Shown in pieces: positions 3,248 to 64,000 of a DNA stretch of 64,000 nucleotides. This DNA is from a virus: positions 1 through 64,000 of the IMG/VR virus record IMGVR_UViG_3300028298_000005; one strand, 5' to 3'. The stretch's first letter is position 1, and every line of letters starts with the position of its first letter. A program made the translations under genes and the position numbers. The notes below the pieces were generated by a model. It saw only the letters and a list, made by a program, of their open reading frames with translations. It searched no databases and was not told where the DNA came from.

Positions 3248-3256
3248 CGTTGAATA

Positions 3257-3267
3257 GTTAATATATA
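3257..3267 (+). promoter_or_regulatory. GTTAATATATA, variant of the recurrent phage motif
   Basis: GTTAATATATA lies in the 51-base gap before the DGR target gene. It is the most divergent copy of GTTAAYACATR, which recurs in gaps at 30187, 40806, 47177, 52689 and 61034 and on the other strand at 16880. Its recurrence before transcription units suggests a promoter element; this is inference. Confidence 0.4.
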
Positions 3268-3298
3268 AAAGTAGAAATATAATAACGGAGATTAAAAA

Positions 3299-4948
3299 AT
3301 GTCAAAAATAAGTGAATACCCGGAATTAGTAACCCCAACGGATGATGATCTTTTGGTTACGGTAAACGCCGGGGTTACGAAAAAAATAAAACGGGCAAAC
3401 TTTTTAGGGAAGACTTTGAATTACATAGGGATTGCCGGGACCGCCGGATTTGGTGTTGGTATTTGTCCGAATACTTTGCCCGCCGGGATGCTTCCTCTTA
3501 CCGGTTATGATGTGATTGGTAACGATCAATATGGTAACTACCAATACAGCGATGGTAGCATAATGGTTTGGGTACCGAAATTTTATTACAAAGTGTTGCA
3601 TGACGGCTCTACAAACATTAACAAAGTACTTATTGCTTCCGTTTATGACTATCAAGACGAGACAGCGGCCAATACCGCCGGATATGCCTTACACCGCGCT
3701 TTTATTGATGGCGGAGTAATTAAAGACGGCTTCTTTATTGATAAATATAAATGGAGCTTAACTGCTTTTGTTAATGGTAGCGCGGGCATAGCCTCGTCTA
3801 TCAAGAACGGTAATCCAATAACAAGTTCAAGTGAGGCGAATAGAGATGCGAGCAATTTGTATGCAGGTTCTTTCGCTGATTGCATTTCCAATTCCCAAAC
3901 CCCGGCTGAAAATTACGGTGGCGCGTGGGCAGCTGCAAAGAGTAGAGGCGCTAACTTTGCTGTTTGGTCAATGTTCATTCATTCTGCAATTGCATTACTA
4001 AGCCTTGCGCATGGGCAAGCGGCAACCAGCACAACAAATTGCGCTTGGTATTTAACTAACAAAAATTACCCGAAAGGCCATAACAACTACGGCGCTGATA
4101 TTGATGATGCAACTTGCACATTTGCCGTGTGCGATGATGGATATTGGGCGGCACGTAACGAAGCGCGTAAAAATGGAAGCGGAACTCTTTTTGCTAAAAC
4201 AACCCACAACGGGCAAAATTGCGGCGTTGCGGACTTGCAGGGAGATCAATACCAAATAGCGCAAGGGTTGACGGCAATTGTATCAACACTAAATGTTAGC
4301 GGAACAGCAGATGTTGGCGGGACAGCGATAGAAGTTACTACGGATGCAGCGCATGGATTAACTACAAATAATTGGGTTATGCTAACAAGTGTTGGTGGGA
4401 CAACAATATTGAACAGTAAAGTTTGGAAAGTAACGGTAACAGCAGCCGATAAATTTACAGTAGTATCCGGAGGTTTTGTTGCATGGACAAGTGCCGGGAC
4501 GGTTACGAAAGGGAAATTCTATGCACTTAAAGAAAGTGTAGCGATAAAAAATGTAACGGGATCAAATGCCGGAGCAACAGACCATTTTGGGGCAACTGGT
4601 GTTGCTGCATTAATGGAAGAGATCGTTCCTAATTTTGCAAATGGCGGAGGTTTTGATCAAAGATTCGGTAATAGTACAAACCAAGTTTTGCCATTTAATA
4701 CATCTCGTACAAATAACAGTTACAAGTTAGGCGCATTAGGTTTGCCAGACGTAAGCGGTATGAGCACGGGCGGGTCTAATTTATTTGGTTTGGATTATTT
4801 TTACCAATATTTAAGAGACGAACTGTGCCCGATTCTCGGCGGCTATTGGGATGATTCAACGATTGCCGGAGTGTGGATTGTCGCTTTGAGTTACTATCGA
4901 GCTTATTCGGCTGGTTATGTTTCGGGCCGTGCGTGCCTTTATGTTTAG
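3299..4948 (+). CDS. DGR target: variable tail receptor-binding protein (C-type-lectin/FGE-like fold)
   Basis: 549 residues from ATG 3299 behind a GGAG site. Residues 1-40 form a short N-terminal phage adaptor. Residues about 60-320 and 410-549 look like a formylglycine-generating-enzyme/C-type-lectin fold, as in DGR variable proteins. Residues about 320-405 look like an inserted Ig-like domain. The C-terminal 36 residues (514-549) have the DGR variable-region form, with invariant Trp517, AGVW (523-526) and a terminal SGRACLYV framing residues whose codons all end in T or C. The protein should be the host-receptor binder at the fibre tip, and the adjacent Avd-like gene supports this. No template repeat or reverse transcriptase is visible in the window. 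Confidence 0.88.
   Translation: MSKISEYPELVTPTDDDLLVTVNAGVTKKIKRANFLGKTLNYIGIAGTAGFGVGICPNTLPAGMLPLTGYDVIGNDQYGNYQYSDGSIMVWVPKFYYKVLHDGSTNINKVLIASVYDYQDETAANTAGYALHRAFIDGGVIKDGFFIDKYKWSLTAFVNGSAGIASSIKNGNPITSSSEANRDASNLYAGSFADCISNSQTPAENYGGAWAAAKSRGANFAVWSMFIHSAIALLSLAHGQAATSTTNCAWYLTNKNYPKGHNNYGADIDDATCTFAVCDDGYWAARNEARKNGSGTLFAKTTHNGQNCGVADLQGDQYQIAQGLTAIVSTLNVSGTADVGGTAIEVTTDAAHGLTTNNWVMLTSVGGTTILNSKVWKVTVTAADKFTVVSGGFVAWTSAGTVTKGKFYALKESVAIKNVTGSNAGATDHFGATGVAALMEEIVPNFANGGGFDQRFGNSTNQVLPFNTSRTNNSYKLGALGLPDVSGMSTGGSNLFGLDYFYQYLRDELCPILGGYWDDSTIAGVWIVALSYYRAYSAGYVSGRACLYV
4838..4945 (+). other. Putative DGR variable region (VR)
   Basis: This is the last 108 coding bases of the target gene. 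Fourteen candidate variable codons (residues 516, 518, 519, 522, 527, 529, 531-533, 535, 536, 538-540) are all NNT or NNC. That is what adenine mutagenesis of AAT/AAC codons in a template repeat would produce. Interspersed codons for Trp, Gly, Val, Arg and Ser lack this pattern. The 3' end is a GC-richer block (TCGGGCCGTGCGTGC, 4922-4936), where the mutagenic-homing initiation site lies in known DGRs. The template repeat itself was not found. Confidence 0.7.
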
Positions 4949-4995
4949 ATGCTTTAGCGAACGGTAGTGAGCGATAATTAAGAAGAACCAAGGAA

Positions 4996-5352
4996 ATGGC
5001 AGAATATCATTTAATAGTAAAAAAGATTAGAGACATGATTGTTTACAACAACATCATGCTGAAGCAATTTCCGAAACATGAAAAATATTTATTAGCAAAT
5101 AAAATAAGGGAGACCGGATATGACATATTTGAATCCGCCATAACAATCAACAAAAAGTTTCATAAGAAAACCACGTTTTCTGATTTGAACATAAAACACG
5201 AATTGCTAAGGCAATTTGTAAATCTTGCGGCAGAACTAAAATACATAGATCTGCAAAAGCATAGGGTATCTCAAACACACATAGACGAAGTTGGCAAGAT
5301 GATAGGAGCATGGATAAAGAAAGAACTTGGAGACGATGAACAGAAGGGTTGA
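4996..5352 (+). CDS. avd: Avd-like DGR accessory protein (four-helix bundle)
   Basis: 118 residues, 47 bases after the variable gene. It matches the Avd / 23S-rRNA-intervening-sequence protein family: a Lys-rich start, the FPKHEKYLLANKIRETGYD helix near residue 25, a second amphipathic helix (HELLRQFVNLAAELKYID) and the family's closing HIDEVGKMIGAWIKKEL. Avd forms a basic pentamer of four-helix bundles that binds the DGR reverse transcriptase and nucleic acid during mutagenic retrohoming. Its position right after a lectin-like variable gene is the classical DGR order, but the reverse transcriptase that should follow is missing and ordinary baseplate genes come next. Confidence 0.85.
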   Translation: MAEYHLIVKKIRDMIVYNNIMLKQFPKHEKYLLANKIRETGYDIFESAITINKKFHKKTTFSDLNIKHELLRQFVNLAAELKYIDLQKHRVSQTHIDEVGKMIGAWIKKELGDDEQKG

Positions 5353-5379
5353 TTAAAAACAAGAAAAAAGGAGAATATC

Positions 5380-5784
5380 ATGCGATATTTCAAAGCTAAA
5401 AAAGTAGTTACAGAATTTACAACGCTAAGTTTTGGCAGCACAAACCAAGATGATAAGGTCATCCATTACGATGAAATAGACGGATTTGAATATTTGGGAG
5501 TAGAAAGCGTTGATGTTGATGGTTTATCGGTCCAGCAACCAGCAGAAATTGAAGCGGTTGAAATAACCTTTGCAGAGGCAAAACCGATACTTGATAACTG
5601 TCGGATGATGAATGATCTGAACGCAATTATCGAAAAGAAAATAGCGGAAAAATATTCTTTACCAAAAGAGATTAAGATGTTAAAACTCACAAAAACCGAT
5701 CCTGAGCGAGTTACTTATCAACAATATGTTGATAGCTGCAAAACGGGAGTTAATTTACTTAAAGTTGCAAATGGATTGATTTAA
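5380..5784 (+). CDS. Tail-operon protein of unknown function
   Basis: 134 residues with an AAAGGAG ribosome site. The N-terminal half is beta-rich and acidic; residues about 70-134 are helical and Lys-rich. The next start is the last base of its stop codon, so it is coupled to the baseplate J gene. It occupies the place where a DGR reverse transcriptase would be expected but has no reverse-transcriptase motif and is far too short. Role unknown. Confidence 0.65.
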   Translation: MRYFKAKKVVTEFTTLSFGSTNQDDKVIHYDEIDGFEYLGVESVDVDGLSVQQPAEIEAVEITFAEAKPILDNCRMMNDLNAIIEKKIAEKYSLPKEIKMLKLTKTDPERVTYQQYVDSCKTGVNLLKVANGLI

Positions 5785-7516: not shown

Positions 7517-9918
7517 TGAAAACAAATATAAAAAACGGTTTAAAATTAAACGGCATCGAGTTATTAAGATTCCAAGAATTGATAAATCGCAATCATTACA
7601 ATGGGCTAGATGCTCTTGTTGAAACTTACGGATTATTGGTGAGCAAAACCGATATAAGCACTTACGGAGCAGAATGGTTGACACAAAAAGTAAGTGATTG
7701 GTATCTTGAAATTAGCCCAGGGAAAGGCATAGTGAAAGGACCGGACGGGAATCCTCACAAGATAGCGTTGACATCTCCCTTTAGCATTGGAGTTTCAACG
7801 TATTCAGCCGGAGAATATAAACTTTTGGTTAGCTTTGCGTCAACTAATTATGAAGAAGGAATAGTAAACATATCAAACGAAAGTGATATTGTTTATGGCG
7901 AACAGACAAAGTTTACAGAAATATTTGGAGTGAACAGAAAAATTATTATTAGCAATGTTGCTTACAATATTCTTTCGGTACAATCAGATAATCAACTAAC
8001 GTTAGAAGAATCTTATGTTGGGGCAGAGGTTATGGATGCACAGTTCAAAGTGGGAGGGTGGATTATTCCAGACCCGGGAGTAGCGGACAGCATAATTTAT
8101 GAATATGACACACTTGCTTTTAGATTAACAACCGGCGCACCAACGGCAATAGAATATAAACTTGCCGATATTGTGATAGGAGGAACAGAGATTGAAAGCG
8201 TTACAGACGCAAGATCGGTGAATATATTCAAGTTGTTTCTAAATACTCCAACAATTTTAGGAACACCGGCAAGCACATTCCAGGTTGGGGGGAGATATGT
8301 TGAGTTGGAAGAGGATATCCCACAGCCTATTGTGAATTTAAGAATAACCGATATTACAGGGATTAAACTAACATATGTTGAAACTGCTGATAATATTAGA
8401 GATAAGATTAGCGATGAAGCCTTTTCTTATTCTGCCAATAAACTTAGGATATTTTTCAAGTGGGGATATGATGATGTAGTTGGAACCGGAGCGGTAAACA
8501 CTTTTACCATTACCAATAAAACTTTTACGCTAAATGAATTGGAAAATTATTTTATTTATATCCCTCTCTTGTCGAAAAAACTTCTTATTGAATCCAACTT
8601 AGCAACGGTAGGCGGATCAACTGTTTTAACCGTTAAGGAAGAAGGGGGAGGAGATTGGGACGGAATCGGAGTAGTGGTTACATCCGAAAACCCGGTAATA
8701 ATTTACAATGGAGCGGATGAATATAATTTTGTAGTGGTTCCGCAGCTTAATTCGGTTTATGACTACGCCGGAGCAGTCGAAAAGAATATAAAATTTACTT
8801 CGGGAAGAGCACAAAACATTACCCTAGACCTTGAAATCGGGACCAAATATCTTGTGAAAGCAAGAGCCGGTGCGAAAGGGAAATTTAATAATTTCGTTGA
8901 AATGAGCGCGGGTACTTTCACTAAATATTCCGCTAGTCAATCTTATGCGAAACCATTTTTAGTAAAGCATCCGGACATTCCAACTGCGGGAGCGGTTGGT
9001 TCTGTAGCAACAAGAAATGGTTTTAGGGTAGATATTTCGGGTTGGAGCGAAGCAGAGCAATTTGAGATTGTTTACACTACAAAGAACAGCGGTGCGAGTT
9101 TTACCGATGTTGAACAAGAGCATAGAACAATTTATAACAGTAAATATGCAGGGCATAAGTATTTAGATATTCCAACTTCCATAAGTGCAAATTATAATAT
9201 TTCGGTAAGACCTTTAATAGCCGGTCAGCAAGTTTCAGCGCCATTAACCACAAGTGTGGTTTCGGGAAGTGCCGGAAATTTGCCAGGAGATCAAGTTATT
9301 ACAAGTGTCTATATTAATCACAGAACCTTTAGCGGTTCACTGAGTTGGAACAATTCGCTTGGTATTGGTACATTATCAACCGTGGTTACCCCGGCATCCG
9401 GTACGCAATCAGTAACAAGTTTGCCGGAATTAGAAGGCTGTATATTAACAGACAGCGCCGGGCATGATTTTATTATATCAAGCGTTCTTAGCAGTTTATC
9501 TATTGAACTAAGTAATTTGGCTGGTGCAAGCTTTACACCGGCGGACGGAGCGTTTACAATTGGAGTAAGTGAAAGGGGAAGATTAGCATTCCAAAGCAAC
9601 AAGGCTACAATCGATTATGAGATTGTCCGTGTAGATATTGATTGCGACGTGAAAAGAGGCGAAAATCTAACGCTAAGAATTTATCAAATTGCAAATAAAG
9701 CGAGTTATGATTCAATCGTAATTACAACCGGGGATACACCGTTTACTATGGATTGCGATGTGCTGCTGTTAGGAGTGTTCGGAGATCGTAATTTAGCGAT
9801 AGATTTTTTTGATCCGGCAACTAGCGGAGCCTTAAACAAGGGATGTTTTTCCGGGCAAATTACGGTTTTTGCAAGACCCGTTTTTACCCGTATGGATGGA
9901 CCAACGGTTGTACAATAG
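7516..9918 (+). CDS. Large tail fibre or baseplate-attached fibre protein
   Basis: 800 residues, start on the last base of the previous stop. The N-terminal about 150 residues (YGAEWLTQKVSDWYLEISPGKG) read like a fibre-attachment domain that assembles on the baseplate. The rest is almost entirely beta-type with many Gly/Asn/Thr turns and an immunoglobulin or fibronectin-like stretch near residues 490-580. Size, composition and position before shorter fibre genes support a long tail fibre or its proximal segment. No enzymatic domain is recognisable. Confidence 0.7.
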   Translation: MKTNIKNGLKLNGIELLRFQELINRNHYNGLDALVETYGLLVSKTDISTYGAEWLTQKVSDWYLEISPGKGIVKGPDGNPHKIALTSPFSIGVSTYSAGEYKLLVSFASTNYEEGIVNISNESDIVYGEQTKFTEIFGVNRKIIISNVAYNILSVQSDNQLTLEESYVGAEVMDAQFKVGGWIIPDPGVADSIIYEYDTLAFRLTTGAPTAIEYKLADIVIGGTEIESVTDARSVNIFKLFLNTPTILGTPASTFQVGGRYVELEEDIPQPIVNLRITDITGIKLTYVETADNIRDKISDEAFSYSANKLRIFFKWGYDDVVGTGAVNTFTITNKTFTLNELENYFIYIPLLSKKLLIESNLATVGGSTVLTVKEEGGGDWDGIGVVVTSENPVIIYNGADEYNFVVVPQLNSVYDYAGAVEKNIKFTSGRAQNITLDLEIGTKYLVKARAGAKGKFNNFVEMSAGTFTKYSASQSYAKPFLVKHPDIPTAGAVGSVATRNGFRVDISGWSEAEQFEIVYTTKNSGASFTDVEQEHRTIYNSKYAGHKYLDIPTSISANYNISVRPLIAGQQVSAPLTTSVVSGSAGNLPGDQVITSVYINHRTFSGSLSWNNSLGIGTLSTVVTPASGTQSVTSLPELEGCILTDSAGHDFIISSVLSSLSIELSNLAGASFTPADGAFTIGVSERGRLAFQSNKATIDYEIVRVDIDCDVKRGENLTLRIYQIANKASYDSIVITTGDTPFTMDCDVLLLGVFGDRNLAIDFFDPATSGALNKGCFSGQITVFARPVFTRMDGPTVVQ

Positions 9919-9933
9919 AGAAAATTATAAATT

Positions 9934-11049
9934 ATGATCACACAATTTAATATAGCGGATACAGTTAAAATATTTGGTACAAAGCGTTATGGCAACGGTT
10001 CACCAAATATTGCTTGTTTGGTTATTTTGTTTAGCGAGGTTACGGGCTTAGAAGCAGCAAGAACTACAACAAACAAGTTAGGTTATTACGAGTTTGTGTT
10101 CAATATCTCCGGTTTTGTTTTCGGTAATTACCAGGTACAGTTTTACGGAAGTGACACGAAACAAAAGTGGACACCATTGGGAGATTGGGAGATAATTCAA
10201 ATCGGTGACCCGAAGGAGACAACATTAGTTTTTAACCAGCTTCCAACGGTTGTAATAAGTGAAAGCACAACGGCACAAGATAAGACAGTCGACGTAAATA
10301 AAAATGAAATGACAACTGTTAAAATTGATCTGAGCAATATTGACATAAAGAGTGGGGAAATAGCCTTGTTGATAGTTTTCTGTATGGAGCATACCGAAGG
10401 ATTGACCGAAGAGCAGAGAGTTGAAAAACTGAGATTGTTCAGGAGTTTCAAAGTTCAAGCAATTGATGGAGTTACTGAGTACACATTTAAGAATGAGATA
10501 AAACTTTATGATAAACCGTGTTATTATGATTTCAGGGTGCAGTTTATAGGCAGAAATTTACTCTATAGCCCGGATGCAGAGGGGAAACCAGCAAAGATAG
10601 ACTTGGATAACGTTGGGTTTGATGGTTTGGAAGATCTAACGGAATATTTCGGTGTTTATAATGCAAGGTTGATTAATGGGGTTGAGGGAGCAGATGCAGA
10701 AAGTATATTTGCTAAAATCGATTGGCTAGAGTTTAGAAATCAATCAAAAACGTATTTCGATGCGGCAAGAGAAGTTAGAAGCGGATTTGATGATAGCGTA
10801 AAAATGTTAACATATAATCAAACACGGCTAATAACTTCTTATGTTGTTTATCTGTTTGTGAGCGAGAGTAATACGTTGCCGGCAAATCTTTATCCCGGGA
10901 ATGGAGATTTATGGTATTTCTGCGGAGAGTTTAGTTCGAACTCGGCAGAGATAAGATGCCCCGTTGGTAAATGGTGCGGGTTTTGGGTTGGATTTAGGCT
11001 AAGAGATGTTAAAGAAAGTGGAATCAATAAGAATATACTAAGTTATTAG
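9934..11049 (+). CDS. Tail fibre-associated protein
   Basis: 371 residues. The N-terminal 90 residues form an Ig-like or carboxypeptidase-regulatory-like beta domain (RTTTNKLGYYEFVFNISGF). The C-terminal third resembles that of the next gene: a GDLWYFCGEF segment followed by an IRCPVGKWCGFWVGF strand, matching GTWYAVAET and IDCPKNKKICFCVACKL there. Both ends suggest parallel fibre subunits built from shared modules. Exact role unknown. Confidence 0.65.
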   Translation: MITQFNIADTVKIFGTKRYGNGSPNIACLVILFSEVTGLEAARTTTNKLGYYEFVFNISGFVFGNYQVQFYGSDTKQKWTPLGDWEIIQIGDPKETTLVFNQLPTVVISESTTAQDKTVDVNKNEMTTVKIDLSNIDIKSGEIALLIVFCMEHTEGLTEEQRVEKLRLFRSFKVQAIDGVTEYTFKNEIKLYDKPCYYDFRVQFIGRNLLYSPDAEGKPAKIDLDNVGFDGLEDLTEYFGVYNARLINGVEGADAESIFAKIDWLEFRNQSKTYFDAAREVRSGFDDSVKMLTYNQTRLITSYVVYLFVSESNTLPANLYPGNGDLWYFCGEFSSNSAEIRCPVGKWCGFWVGFRLRDVKESGINKNILSY

Positions 11050-11058
11050 GAGAAAGAG

Positions 11059-12003
11059 ATGTCAACAACAGACGGTTTTATAGGGATGTTTAGGGTACCT
11101 GAACCAGGAGTAACTGTACCAAAAATTACAGACATTAGTGCCGCTACAATTGTAGTAACTGAGATTGTGGAACTCATAGGATCAAGAGCATTCCCTAGGG
11201 CTAAAATTGATATAGGTAATGTGGACATTGTGGAGGGAGCAATAACCGGCGTGTGCATTGAATATCAACTCAGTACGGGCACATGGCAGCCTGATGAGGT
11301 GACTATAGTATCGACATTTCCGGTTAGTTGGTCCGGCGCAGATCAAGGCGGAACATTTAAAATCGGGGGGATACAGTATGTGGAAGAAGGGTTAAATAGT
11401 GATTTCAGAGTTTACTTCATTAACACCGACGGAGAAAAAGCTGTAGATTTAGCAACAGGAAAAGTTATTGGAGTTGCTCCTACGGCAGGAGCTGGTTGGT
11501 TGGAAATTGATGATGTTACTTTTGATGGGCATCCGGATCTTGCAGAATTTCCGATGGTATTAGACTTGCGGGCAGTTAACGCTTCTAACACCGAAGGGAT
11601 TCTTTCTTTTACAACACCGGCGAACATTCCAAATTCCGGCATAATGAAGCTTGCATGGAAAGACATGAAGAGGGAGATAGCTAAAACTGCACATCCTATG
11701 GCAAATGGGACAACTGCCAATGTACCGATTGAAGCCTGGAGAAAGTTTGACAAATATATTGTATTTATGTTCATAGCTGCTACCGGTATCCCTTCGACCA
11801 CATATCCGTGGAGTTCTGAAACTACCGGGACCTGGTATGCAGTAGCCGAAACGGCGAACAATTTTATTGATATAGATTGCCCTAAGAATAAAAAGATATG
11901 TTTTTGTGTAGCTTGTAAATTGTGGTTGTCCGGAGATACTACTGTAATTGGTGGTACATCCACAACCGCAGCATTACCCAATATTGCATATGTAACATAT
12001 TAA
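11059..12003 (+). CDS. Fibre protein with STTDGFIGMF leader (copy 1)
   Basis: 314 residues from ATG 11059 behind AGGAG. The first 11 residues (MSTTDGFIGMF) are identical to those of the fibre gene at 12520, and the DNA identity is confined to 33 bases, so a short leader is shared by otherwise different proteins. Residues about 220-300 are related to the C-terminal domain of the preceding gene (Trp-Tyr segment, then a D-C-P-K-N strand). It probably attaches to the same baseplate site as copy 2. Function beyond a fibre role unknown. Confidence 0.68.
   Translation: MSTTDGFIGMFRVPEPGVTVPKITDISAATIVVTEIVELIGSRAFPRAKIDIGNVDIVEGAITGVCIEYQLSTGTWQPDEVTIVSTFPVSWSGADQGGTFKIGGIQYVEEGLNSDFRVYFINTDGEKAVDLATGKVIGVAPTAGAGWLEIDDVTFDGHPDLAEFPMVLDLRAVNASNTEGILSFTTPANIPNSGIMKLAWKDMKREIAKTAHPMANGTTANVPIEAWRKFDKYIVFMFIAATGIPSTTYPWSSETTGTWYAVAETANNFIDIDCPKNKKICFCVACKLWLSGDTTVIGGTSTTAALPNIAYVTY
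11060..11092 (+). repeat. 33-bp direct repeat, copy 1 (fibre leader)
   Basis: This stretch covers the start codon and first ten codons of the fibre gene at 11059 and is identical to 12521-12553. Flanking bases differ on both sides. A shared leader with different bodies is typical of recombination-driven fibre exchange. Confidence 0.85.
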
Positions 12004-30351: not shown

Positions 30352-30992
30352 CTTTAGAAATCGGGAAACGATACGGACGATTAACAGTTATAGCTGAGGG
30401 TGAGCGGCGTGTTTGCCCTTCGGGGAAAAGCAGAAGGGTTGCTAAATGTCAATGTGACTGTGGGGAAATTATTGGTGTATCAATTTGGTCACTTAACAGT
30501 AAAACAAAACCTACGCTTAGTTGTGGTTGTCTTACAATTGAAATGATGAAAATTACAAAAACGAAGCATGGGCTTATAAATCATCCTTTATACAGAAAAT
30601 TAATGGGGATGAAAAAACGTTGCTATAATCCTAAATATGGGCAATACCATCGTTACGGCGGACGCGGTATAAAAGTTTGTGAAGAGTGGTTGAATGATTT
30701 TATGTCATTTTATAATTGGGCAATGGCAAATGGATGGGAAGATGGACTTGAAATAGACCGAAAAGATAATGATGGGAATTATGAACCAAGCAATTGCAGG
30801 TTTGTGACAAGCCAAGAAAACACACACAATAGGAGAACATCAAAACTTAACTGGGAAGATGTGCACAATATAAGAAACGCTAAACTTTTGAATCCAGAGA
30901 CAAAAAATACTGAATTAGCTAAAACTTTTGAAGTTAGTAGGCGCACTATTAACAATATTTTAAACAATGAAAGATGGAGAGAAGCAGTATGA
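30345..30992 (+). CDS. HNH-type homing endonuclease-like protein, copy A
   Basis: 215 residues. Residues about 35-62 hold a four-Cys zinc-binding part (CQCDCG, SCGC). Residues 85-160 hold the phage HNH/AP2-like block: KKRCYNPKYGQYHRYGGRG, VCEEWLNDFMSFYNWAM, LEIDRKDNDGNYEPSNCRFV. Residues about 168-212 are a DNA-binding HTH (LAKTFEVSRRTINNILN). It is a close paralogue of the gene at 36955. Such endonucleases spread themselves by cutting unoccupied sites. It lies between helicase and sbcC-like genes, and its stop overlaps the sbcC-like start (ATGA). Confidence 0.8.
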   Translation: MKPLEIGKRYGRLTVIAEGERRVCPSGKSRRVAKCQCDCGEIIGVSIWSLNSKTKPTLSCGCLTIEMMKITKTKHGLINHPLYRKLMGMKKRCYNPKYGQYHRYGGRGIKVCEEWLNDFMSFYNWAMANGWEDGLEIDRKDNDGNYEPSNCRFVTSQENTHNRRTSKLNWEDVHNIRNAKLLNPETKNTELAKTFEVSRRTINNILNNERWREAV

Positions 30993-36968: not shown

Positions 36969-37611
36969 TATAAAGATTGGGGATCGGTTTGGAAGGTTGG
37001 TGGTTACAGGAGAAGCTGACCGACACATAACCAGTACAGGCCAAATTAAAAGAATAATTAGATGCCAATGTGATTGTGGTAGGGATACGAAAGTATTTCT
37101 TTCGGCTTTAAGGAATAGTAAAATACCTACTAATAGTTGTGGGTGTTTACAAGCTGAGCGTGCAAAAAATGCTAATACACAACACGGATTAAGCCAACAT
37201 TCTTTATATGGGAAGTTAGAGGGGATGAAAAAACGATGTTATAATCCAAAAGTAAGTGGATACCACCGTTATGGTGGACGCGGAATAAAGATATGCGAAG
37301 AATGGCTGAATAATTTTATGTCATTTTATAATTGGGCGATGGCTAATGGATGGAAAGAGGGTTTACAAATAGATCGAATAAATAATGACGGCAACTATGA
37401 ACCAAATAATTGTAGATTTGTGACTTCAGCAGTGAACAATCGTAATCAAAGTACGACAAAACTAACGTGGGATGATGTTAATGAAATACGTAACACTAAG
37501 CTTCTAAACCCAAAAATTAAAATAAATGAATTAGCCGCAAGTTTCGGGATAAAAAAAACTACGGTTTCAAAAATATTAAACAACAAAATTTGGCAAATAA
37601 GATTAAAATAA
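36955..37611 (+). CDS. HNH-type homing endonuclease-like protein, copy B
   Basis: 218 residues, paralogous to copy A along its length: GDRFGRLVV start, CQCDCG and SCGC zinc residues, KKRCYNPKVSGYHRYGGRG, ICEEWLNNFMSFYNWAM, LQIDRINNDGNYEPNNCRFV, and a C-terminal HTH (LAASFGIKKTTVSKILNNK). The catalytic block is the most conserved part; N- and C-terminal parts have drifted. Two diverged copies in one genome suggest independent or duplicated homing elements. Confidence 0.8.
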   Translation: MNPINIKIGDRFGRLVVTGEADRHITSTGQIKRIIRCQCDCGRDTKVFLSALRNSKIPTNSCGCLQAERAKNANTQHGLSQHSLYGKLEGMKKRCYNPKVSGYHRYGGRGIKICEEWLNNFMSFYNWAMANGWKEGLQIDRINNDGNYEPNNCRFVTSAVNNRNQSTTKLTWDDVNEIRNTKLLNPKIKINELAASFGIKKTTVSKILNNKIWQIRLK

Positions 37612-61998: not shown

Positions 61999-63716
61999 GC
62001 GGCAGGATAGGACAGTGCGATAGTTTGGAGTTTATGAAAAAGCAAGAAGATTTTTCTGCTGATATTATCTATTGTGATCCGCCGTATGCGTTGGGGAGTG
62101 AAGTTATTATACGCAAAGACGGGAAACCGGATTATAAAAAAGCCGTAGATTTTATGAATAAATGGGATATGCCAAACGGCGATTATTGGGAGGCTTGGTT
62201 TAAGGAAGCATTTAGAGTATTAAAGTACGGCGGGCGTGTAATAATGTTTGGAATGGACCGCCAATTAATGCTGAATAAATATTATGCTTGTTACGCCGGA
62301 TTTGAGGAACAGCAAAGTTTGTATTGGTATTTTATTTCGAACTTTCCGAAAGCTACTGATTTAAGCAAAATGATTGACCGAAACGCAGGAGCGGGAAGGG
62401 AAGTTGTTGGAATAACTTCTATCCCAAATGGGAAAGAAAGTGCATACCAAGGTGAACGATATAAAGAAAAAAGGGAAACTGCTTTTGGGGTTATTCAAGA
62501 CCAACCGGATAAAACCGCGCCATTCACAGAGCTTGCAAAAAAATATGAGGGATACAAATATTCTATTTCACCATTAAAGCAAACGAACGAAACGATAATG
62601 GTTTTTCAAAAGCCATATAAAACCGGAAGTTGTTTGCACGACACTTTTGCGTATGAAAATGGAGATAGGGAATGTTTATGCGGGGCTTTGAATATTGAGG
62701 GAAATAGAGTTGGATTCGCTTCAAATGAAGATGAAGCGGAGAGTAAAAATAAAAATCAACATGAAGATTTTGGCACAAAGCCAATGACGGGTAATAATGT
62801 TTACGGCGATTTTTCTATGATCGGACAAAAGAATTATAATCCTCCCGGTCGTTATCCTTCGCAAACTTTTATTGAGTGCATTTGTGATGAAGTAGTTATT
62901 AAAAAGAATGAGGCGCAGCCATATTCTTACAGCGGAAAAGAATACCAGAACAAAGAAACATCGATGTTTAACGGAGACAAACCACAAGCGCCAAGTAATT
63001 ATAATGATAAAGGAAGCGGCCAGATACACACGAATCCGAATTGTCCGTGTGCAAGATTAGATTTACAAAGCGGAGAATTGCAAAAAGGGAAAGGGGACTA
63101 TGTACGCAAAAACGGAGCGGAACAATTTTTAAGCGCAATGGGGCAAGATAAAACAGACCCGCCAAATAAAATATCAGATACCGGCGGATGCAGCAAGATT
63201 TTACACAAGTGTGAGTTTGATGAAGAAGAGCATGATATTTATTTTTATTTCCCGAAGGTGAGTAAGGCTGAACGAAACGGCGGACTGGAGGAGCTATCAC
63301 TAAAAGGAAGGGAACCAAAGGGCAATAATCAAGGAGTGAGATATTGTAAAGATTGTGGTTTAACAGATAATGGGACCAATAATCATAACAATTGCTCTGG
63401 TATATTTGAATATAAACTTTGTCAGTCTGTTAAGAATAACCATCCCACATTAAAACCAATTGCGTTAAACAAAAGAATTTTATCTCTGTTCAAGACACCG
63501 AACGGGCAGAAAATACTTTATCCTTTTGCCGGAACCTTTTCAGAAGTAATAGGGGGATATTTAGCGGGGTTTACAAATTTTGAAGGTTGCGAGTTAAAAG
63601 AAGAATGGATAACCATAGGCGAAGCAAGGTTTAGTTACTGGACAAATAGAGAGAAGAAAGAAGCTGCTGAAAATGAAGATCAGTTTAATTTATTCACCCA
63701 GACCGAGGCAGCATAA
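61995..63716 (+). CDS. DNA methyltransferase, DPPY type (N6-adenine or N4-cytosine)
   Basis: 573 residues. Catalytic motif IIYCDPPYALGS near residue 24-35, RVLKYGGRVIMFGMDRQ, and a late S-adenosylmethionine region (PTLKPIALNKRILSLF, ILYPFAGTFSEVIGGYLAGF). The motif order is beta-type, as in the SPPY enzyme at 47330, but the sequence is not close. A long insert (about 215-440) with Cys pairs (CLCGAL, CPCARL, CKDCG) is probably the target-recognition part. Third methyltransferase of the genome; no endonuclease partner visible. Confidence 0.88.
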   Translation: MSGRIGQCDSLEFMKKQEDFSADIIYCDPPYALGSEVIIRKDGKPDYKKAVDFMNKWDMPNGDYWEAWFKEAFRVLKYGGRVIMFGMDRQLMLNKYYACYAGFEEQQSLYWYFISNFPKATDLSKMIDRNAGAGREVVGITSIPNGKESAYQGERYKEKRETAFGVIQDQPDKTAPFTELAKKYEGYKYSISPLKQTNETIMVFQKPYKTGSCLHDTFAYENGDRECLCGALNIEGNRVGFASNEDEAESKNKNQHEDFGTKPMTGNNVYGDFSMIGQKNYNPPGRYPSQTFIECICDEVVIKKNEAQPYSYSGKEYQNKETSMFNGDKPQAPSNYNDKGSGQIHTNPNCPCARLDLQSGELQKGKGDYVRKNGAEQFLSAMGQDKTDPPNKISDTGGCSKILHKCEFDEEEHDIYFYFPKVSKAERNGGLEELSLKGREPKGNNQGVRYCKDCGLTDNGTNNHNNCSGIFEYKLCQSVKNNHPTLKPIALNKRILSLFKTPNGQKILYPFAGTFSEVIGGYLAGFTNFEGCELKEEWITIGEARFSYWTNREKKEAAENEDQFNLFTQTEAA

Positions 63717-64000
63717 TGAAATTATTTGGCAGAACAATAGTAAAAAGTAAAGTAATTGTTGAAAATCTTGATGATAAGTTGAAGGCTGAAAAGACTTTCA
63801 AACTTCAGGATAGAATTTATTTTAAAGGTCTTGATATTGCAGTTGAGAATAAAAAGGGAAGCATACGGCGCGGTGTAAATGATGATGGTACAAAATGGGA
63901 AACGTTTATGCACATTCCTTACGGCTATATTAGGCGAACGGAGAGTGTTTCGGACGGTGAGAAGATCGATTGTTACATTGGAGAAAATAAGGATAGTGAA
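63716..64000 (+). CDS. Inorganic-pyrophosphatase-like domain protein, start only (cut by right edge)
   Basis: 95 residues visible, open to the window end; ATG 63716 overlaps the last base of the preceding stop. IAVENKKGSIRRGVNDDG, FMHIPYGYIRRTE and DGEKIDCYIG give the phage InPase-like pattern (GSxRxGxxxDGTxW, YGYIRxT, DGexID). In phages such a domain heads polyvalent or capsid-maturation proteins. The rest lies outside the window. Confidence 0.72.
   Translation, partial: MKLFGRTIVKSKVIVENLDDKLKAEKTFKLQDRIYFKGLDIAVENKKGSIRRGVNDDGTKWETFMHIPYGYIRRTESVSDGEKIDCYIGENKDSE

Follow-up and report, generated by a model that had tools for sequence, protein, structure and literature searches.

A phage tail-protein retroelement cassette that has very probably lost its template repeat and reverse transcriptase by deletion

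The diversity-generating retroelement (DGR) of Bordetella phage BPP-1 has the order mtd-avd-TR-brt, in which a target gene with a variable repeat (VR) at its 3' end is followed by avd, the template repeat (TR) and the reverse transcriptase (RT) gene. Decay of DGRs in phages is already known; incomplete cassettes occur in 66 of 91 genus I crAss-like genomes (PMC7290462), and the RT is fragmented or deleted in other Epsilonunovirus genomes (PMC11054128). Outside phages, isolates of Treponema denticola carry leftover DGR targets with neither RT nor TR in the genome, which has been read as loss of the core, and their VRs differ from known TRs mainly at adenines (PMC4891356). A DGR on contig 26 of nanoarchaeal OTU1 is missing its RT ORF (PMC4372165), and in Pseudogulbenkiania a duplicated DGR whose RT is heavily mutated is located near distal targets (PMC3521204).

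Here we describe a phage cassette that retains the surviving part of the BPP-1 order, a target with a 3'-terminal VR and then avd, and that resembles BPP-1 also in its C-type-lectin-type target and in the adenine-specific differences between its VR and the TR of a relative. In contrast to BPP-1, TR and RT have, on our reading, been deleted in this lineage, and the family to which it belongs has a small conserved gene after the RT. As in the crAss-like phages, target and VR are kept after loss of the RT, there often also of the TR, and loss of retrohoming is inferred in both cases; however, the genus I crAss-like cassettes (crAssphage LMMB type) have no avd, whereas avd is intact here and the junction and an RT relict can be resolved. 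The T. denticola remnants differ in lying on a bacterial chromosome with multiple remote targets, and the part of that account drawn on here describes no avd-RT junction (PMC4891356). The nanoarchaeal DGR is likewise without an RT, but archaeal. What the present locus adds is a junction resolved to the base, at which a relict of the RT persists, together with an Avd that is intact, a sister cassette that is both syntenic and complete, and a further loss in another lineage.

The window, the whole stretch of 64,000 nucleotides analysed here, comprises positions 1-64,000 of IMGVR_UViG_3300028298_000005 (G000), a linear and incomplete record of 69,211 bp. It was compared with IMGVR_UViG_3300028178_000001 (G001, 92,107 bp), a near-identical relative, and with IMGVR_UViG_3300014208_001433 (G002, 93,133 bp), which shares about 80% nucleotide identity with the window lineage and whose DGR locus is referred to as L003. 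G001 matches G000 from position 563 on, with just 11 differences over 1170-69,211 and none at 3250-5450, so the two records represent nearly one strain and show the deletion little more than once. The identity of their VRs was considered as a sign of inactivity and dropped, as the genomes are near-identical everywhere. G001 and G002 are circular permutations of one another, and a further relative is of similar length (G024, 92,605 bp), which makes about 92-93 kb the likely normal size of these genomes. At its left end (1-1169) G000 has about 74-88% identity to G001, so that either a recombination boundary or a difference between strains lies near 1170. The stretches 30582-30808 and 37198-37424 are a duplicated sequence, about 80% alike, and in G001 each matches the site of the other. 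Domains of an inorganic pyrophosphatase, an Eco57I-type methylase and an SNF2 helicase are joined in one very large ORF that runs off the end of the record (L001:13716-19211, corresponding to 63716-69211 of G000, of which the window holds only 63716-64000); within this ORF they are interrupted by an intein-like stretch that carries Hint and LAGLIDADG domains.

Table 1. Features of the cassette in the window and of the intact cassette in G002 (locus L003, coordinates of that locus).
Feature	Position	Strand	Basis or sequence
DGR target gene, 549-aa tail/receptor-binding protein with C-type-lectin-type C-terminus	3299..4948	+	ORF; PHROG; profile match; orthologues
VR, 111 bp matched to the G002 TR	4825..4935	+	adenine-biased differences
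Probable initiation-of-mutagenic-homing (IMH) site, G+C-rich VR 3' end where VR/TR identity stops	4919..4935	+	GTTTCGGGCCGTGCGTG
avd, accessory variability determinant, 118 aa, intact	4996..5352	+	Pfam bAvd; PHROG Avd
Deletion junction, 2-bp GG microhomology	5346..5349	+	alignment to L003 (10353 joined to about 11620) and L004
RT 3'-end relict, last 16 codons	5349..5399	+	LIKNKKKGEYHAIFQS followed by stop; aligns with RT C-termini of L003 and L004
Conserved last cassette gene, 134 aa, possibly for a tail-fibre partner or chaperone	5380..5784	+	synteny
G002 target gene	8310-9953
G002 Avd	10001-10363
G002 TR	~10366-10480
G002 RT	10639-11673
G002 next gene	from 11654

The tail protein was found as the 549-residue ORF that an earlier note on this DNA had given, with the same count of fourteen NNT/NNC codons at its C-terminus. 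It matches a PHROG tail protein (E=3.2e-9), and its orthologues in relatives also bear a VR. Compared with the G002 TR, the window VR differs at 18 of 33 TR-adenine sites and at 4 of 78 other sites (Fisher p=1.6e-8), the four latter differences all being synonymous and at third positions, while between the VR of G002 itself and its TR all 16 differences are at adenines. Judged from sequence, the window repeat is a genuine DGR variable repeat. The earlier note had thus placed a real VR here, but its bounds of 4838-4945 are replaced by the TR-matched core listed in Table 1. In G002, VR and TR have GTTTCGGGGCGCGCGTG in common and diverge after it, and by analogy with BPP-1 the corresponding end of the window VR is a probable IMH site; no convincing hairpin was noticed 3' of the VR when looked for in passing.

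A search of the PDB with the tail protein as a single sequence gave no match, whereas an alignment profile of 11 homologous targets found TaqVP (PDB 5VF4, E=4.8e-5), a C-type-lectin DGR protein of Thermus aquaticus (PMC6328139). By this profile match the target groups with the C-type-lectin DGR proteins, and a CLec fold may surround the VR; an AlphaFold2 model built from an 11-row alignment had a mean pLDDT of 49, and of about 20-30 in the VR region, and was too poor to bear this out or to serve in a fold search. The middle of the protein (window 4259-4498), where an E1_FCCH-like match lies (residues 344-406), diverges from G002 (38-57%) much more than the parts around it, which may reflect a domain swap.

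The 118-residue protein encoded after the tail gene, previously described as Avd-like, was identified as Avd in two independent libraries (Pfam bAvd, E=4.5e-23, 82 bits against a cut-off of 40; PHROG 'Avd protein of DGR', E=4.3e-32). It shares 96% amino acid identity with the Avd of G002 at a dS of 0.149, while the genes flanking avd have dS values of 0.77-2.0 in the same comparison, and the block of high identity with G002 starts shortly after the VR and stops at the deletion junction. Silent sites of avd are not generally constrained, as dS exceeds 2 between L003 and L004. The low dS suggests recent recombination with a G002-like phage. Its intactness could mean either a recent loss of the other parts or continued use.

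At the same place G002 carries a full cassette in the order target-VR, Avd, TR, RT and next gene. Related cassettes are contiguous. Of 17 Avd loci examined, 15 have a VR/TR pair; the exceptions are the locus of the window lineage (L002) and a second one, L020, discussed below. The genes after avd had been taken for ordinary baseplate genes, but the one directly following it belongs to the DGR cassette, of which it is the conserved last member; its homologue lies directly 3' of the RT in 11 relatives (L003, L004, L005, L006, L007, L062, L063, L064, L143, L144 and L220), and the window therefore keeps every cassette piece but TR and RT. The encoded 134-residue protein has no Pfam match. Its gene recurs in these eleven related cassettes of otherwise largely unrelated phages, making it a candidate for an undescribed DGR-linked partner of the target protein.

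Relative to G002, about 1.27 kb is missing from the window, comprising all of the TR and nearly all of the RT. The junction reads ...GAACAGAAGGG / TTGATTAAAAACAAGAAAAAAGGAGAATATCATGCG..., with the end of avd on the left and the 3' end of the RT gene on the right, and the avd stop codon (TGA, 5350-5352) sits within the RT-derived DNA. The sixteen residual RT codons align with the C-termini LIKNNKKEVYHAIFQG of L003 and LIKNNKSEVYREIFQC of L004, each followed by its stop, and run into the beginning of the next gene, an overlap also made by the intact RT of relatives. Thirteen bp are identical to L004 (GGTTGATTAAAAA). In the part that does not overlap the next gene, just about ten codons, 8 mismatches to L003 were counted, six of which fall at third positions, as expected of a formerly coding sequence.

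Taken as parts of an active DGR, the window has the accessory protein Avd and, with the TR of G002 as reference, a target VR differing from its cognate TR mainly at adenines, while neither a TR nor a DGR reverse transcriptase was found in G000 or in the near-complete G001. As expected of an incomplete remnant, target and VR are kept, RT and TR are gone, relatives are intact, and a relict of the lost core, the RT C-terminus, is present at the junction. The cassette is very probably a DGR that lost its engine, TR and RT, by deletion, leaving the receptor-binding tip frozen. The earlier note had listed a frozen remnant among its possible readings, and this one gains support from the intact syntenic cassette in relatives and from the relict.

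According to this explanation the ancestor would have had the order target(VR), Avd, TR, RT and small gene, and illegitimate recombination would have brought the 3' end of avd directly against that of the RT gene, removing TR and RT except for 16 RT codons. As avd resembles its G002 counterpart far more than the neighbouring sequence does, the junction probably arose from an unequal crossover, at the right side of an exchange between two co-infecting relatives. Without a TR there would be no template and without an RT no cDNA, so with both gone the fourteen hypervariable tip codons would be fixed in the version present at the time of the deletion. The phage would go on making one receptor-binding tip, with avd intact but partnerless in this genome; we infer that the cassette is inactive and that the fixed tip is functional.

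That the window holds no RT or TR, as claimed before, was borne out and extends over the full 69,211-bp record. RVT_1 had no match in G000, while the same family search detected the RT of G002 (E=3.8e-29), and a scan of both strands of the 69 kb for sequences resembling the VR except at adenines gave best scores at the level of a shuffled genome. Both parts might instead be supplied in trans, the phage retaining VR and Avd and borrowing TR and RT from the host, a prophage or a relative like G002 that infects the same cell. Such an arrangement would suit an undamaged Avd that is very similar to the one in G002 and a G002 TR that agrees with the window VR at all but four of 78 non-adenine sites, and distal targets are known in other DGRs (PMC3521204); however, the low dS of Avd is accounted for by recent exchange. 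When the VR/TR pattern was searched in degenerate form, only G001 and G002 were recovered from 2.9 million viral contigs and nothing from 84,980 bacterial and archaeal GTDB genomes, an exact scan that misses TRs differing at non-adenines. With no TR matching the VR in those genomes or in viral contigs besides G002, the earlier suggestion of an RT supplied in trans is unsupported, and we consider this explanation unlikely. It is equally doubtful that this engine-less phage keeps VR and Avd because RT-bearing relatives in the same host diversify its tail. If it were true, TR and RT would be a public good, and phages that lose the engine may persist as cheaters. Three relatives of Avd were found in the GTDB genomes. 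The nearest of them lies on a contig, from a Bacteroidetes MAG, that also carries its own RT, a hint that the host belongs to the Bacteroidetes.

The earlier note had also allowed for an RT in the rest of the genome, and G000, a linear contig of 69 kb, is indeed incomplete, which leaves room for TR and RT outside the record. G001, with 11 differences over 68 kb, reaches 92,107 bp without either. It contains no RVT_1 match, the RT protein of G002 matched neither G000 nor G001, and no TR was found on either strand by a scan that does recover the TR of G002. Both ends of G001 are within the same tape-measure ORF (residues 21-283 at one end and 966-1039 at the other), and by comparison with G002 the missing part is about 2 kb and confined to the middle of that ORF. 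Because G001 lacks both components and only about 2 kb inside one gene is unseen, their location elsewhere in the genome is very unlikely; a split layout would also depart from the contiguous cassettes of relatives.

VR and TR are near-repeats and can confuse assemblers, but a collapse between them would take out avd, which lies between the repeats, and not TR plus RT, and the junction between avd and the RT tail is common to two separate records, making it extremely improbable that the assembler dropped TR and RT. Least credible of all is that the RT-less state is ancestral and that G002 gained TR and RT later, for although two genomes alone give parsimony no direction, the remnant of the RT C-terminus in the window and the RT-bearing cassettes of the closest outgroups (L004-L007, L143, L144, L220 and L062-L064) identify the loss as the derived state.

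In a survey of 106 Avd loci, which amount to about 95 distinct contigs after removal of repeats, only three lineages were without a full RT among those with enough downstream sequence, namely those of the window, L020 and L216. In L020 (9959-10399) an in-frame fusion links the first 72 residues of an Avd ORF to the final 75 of the RT; the target VR lies upstream of the fusion (from 9844) and the small cassette gene downstream. L020 is a second DGR loss in which TR and RT have gone via a different junction. In L216 (1-950) avd is directly followed by other genes and a terminase-like ORF (lysis and packaging genes), and no RT or TR was found on its 4.3-kb contig, which is itself cut just upstream of avd.

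The locus provides a resolved loss event, with both flanks, a relict, an intact syntenic relative and, in L020, a second loss with another junction. DGR surveys that begin from the RT will overlook frozen targets of this kind. Phages with and without the engine can be compared, and thereby it may be asked when a fixed receptor-binding tip pays better than a diversifying one.
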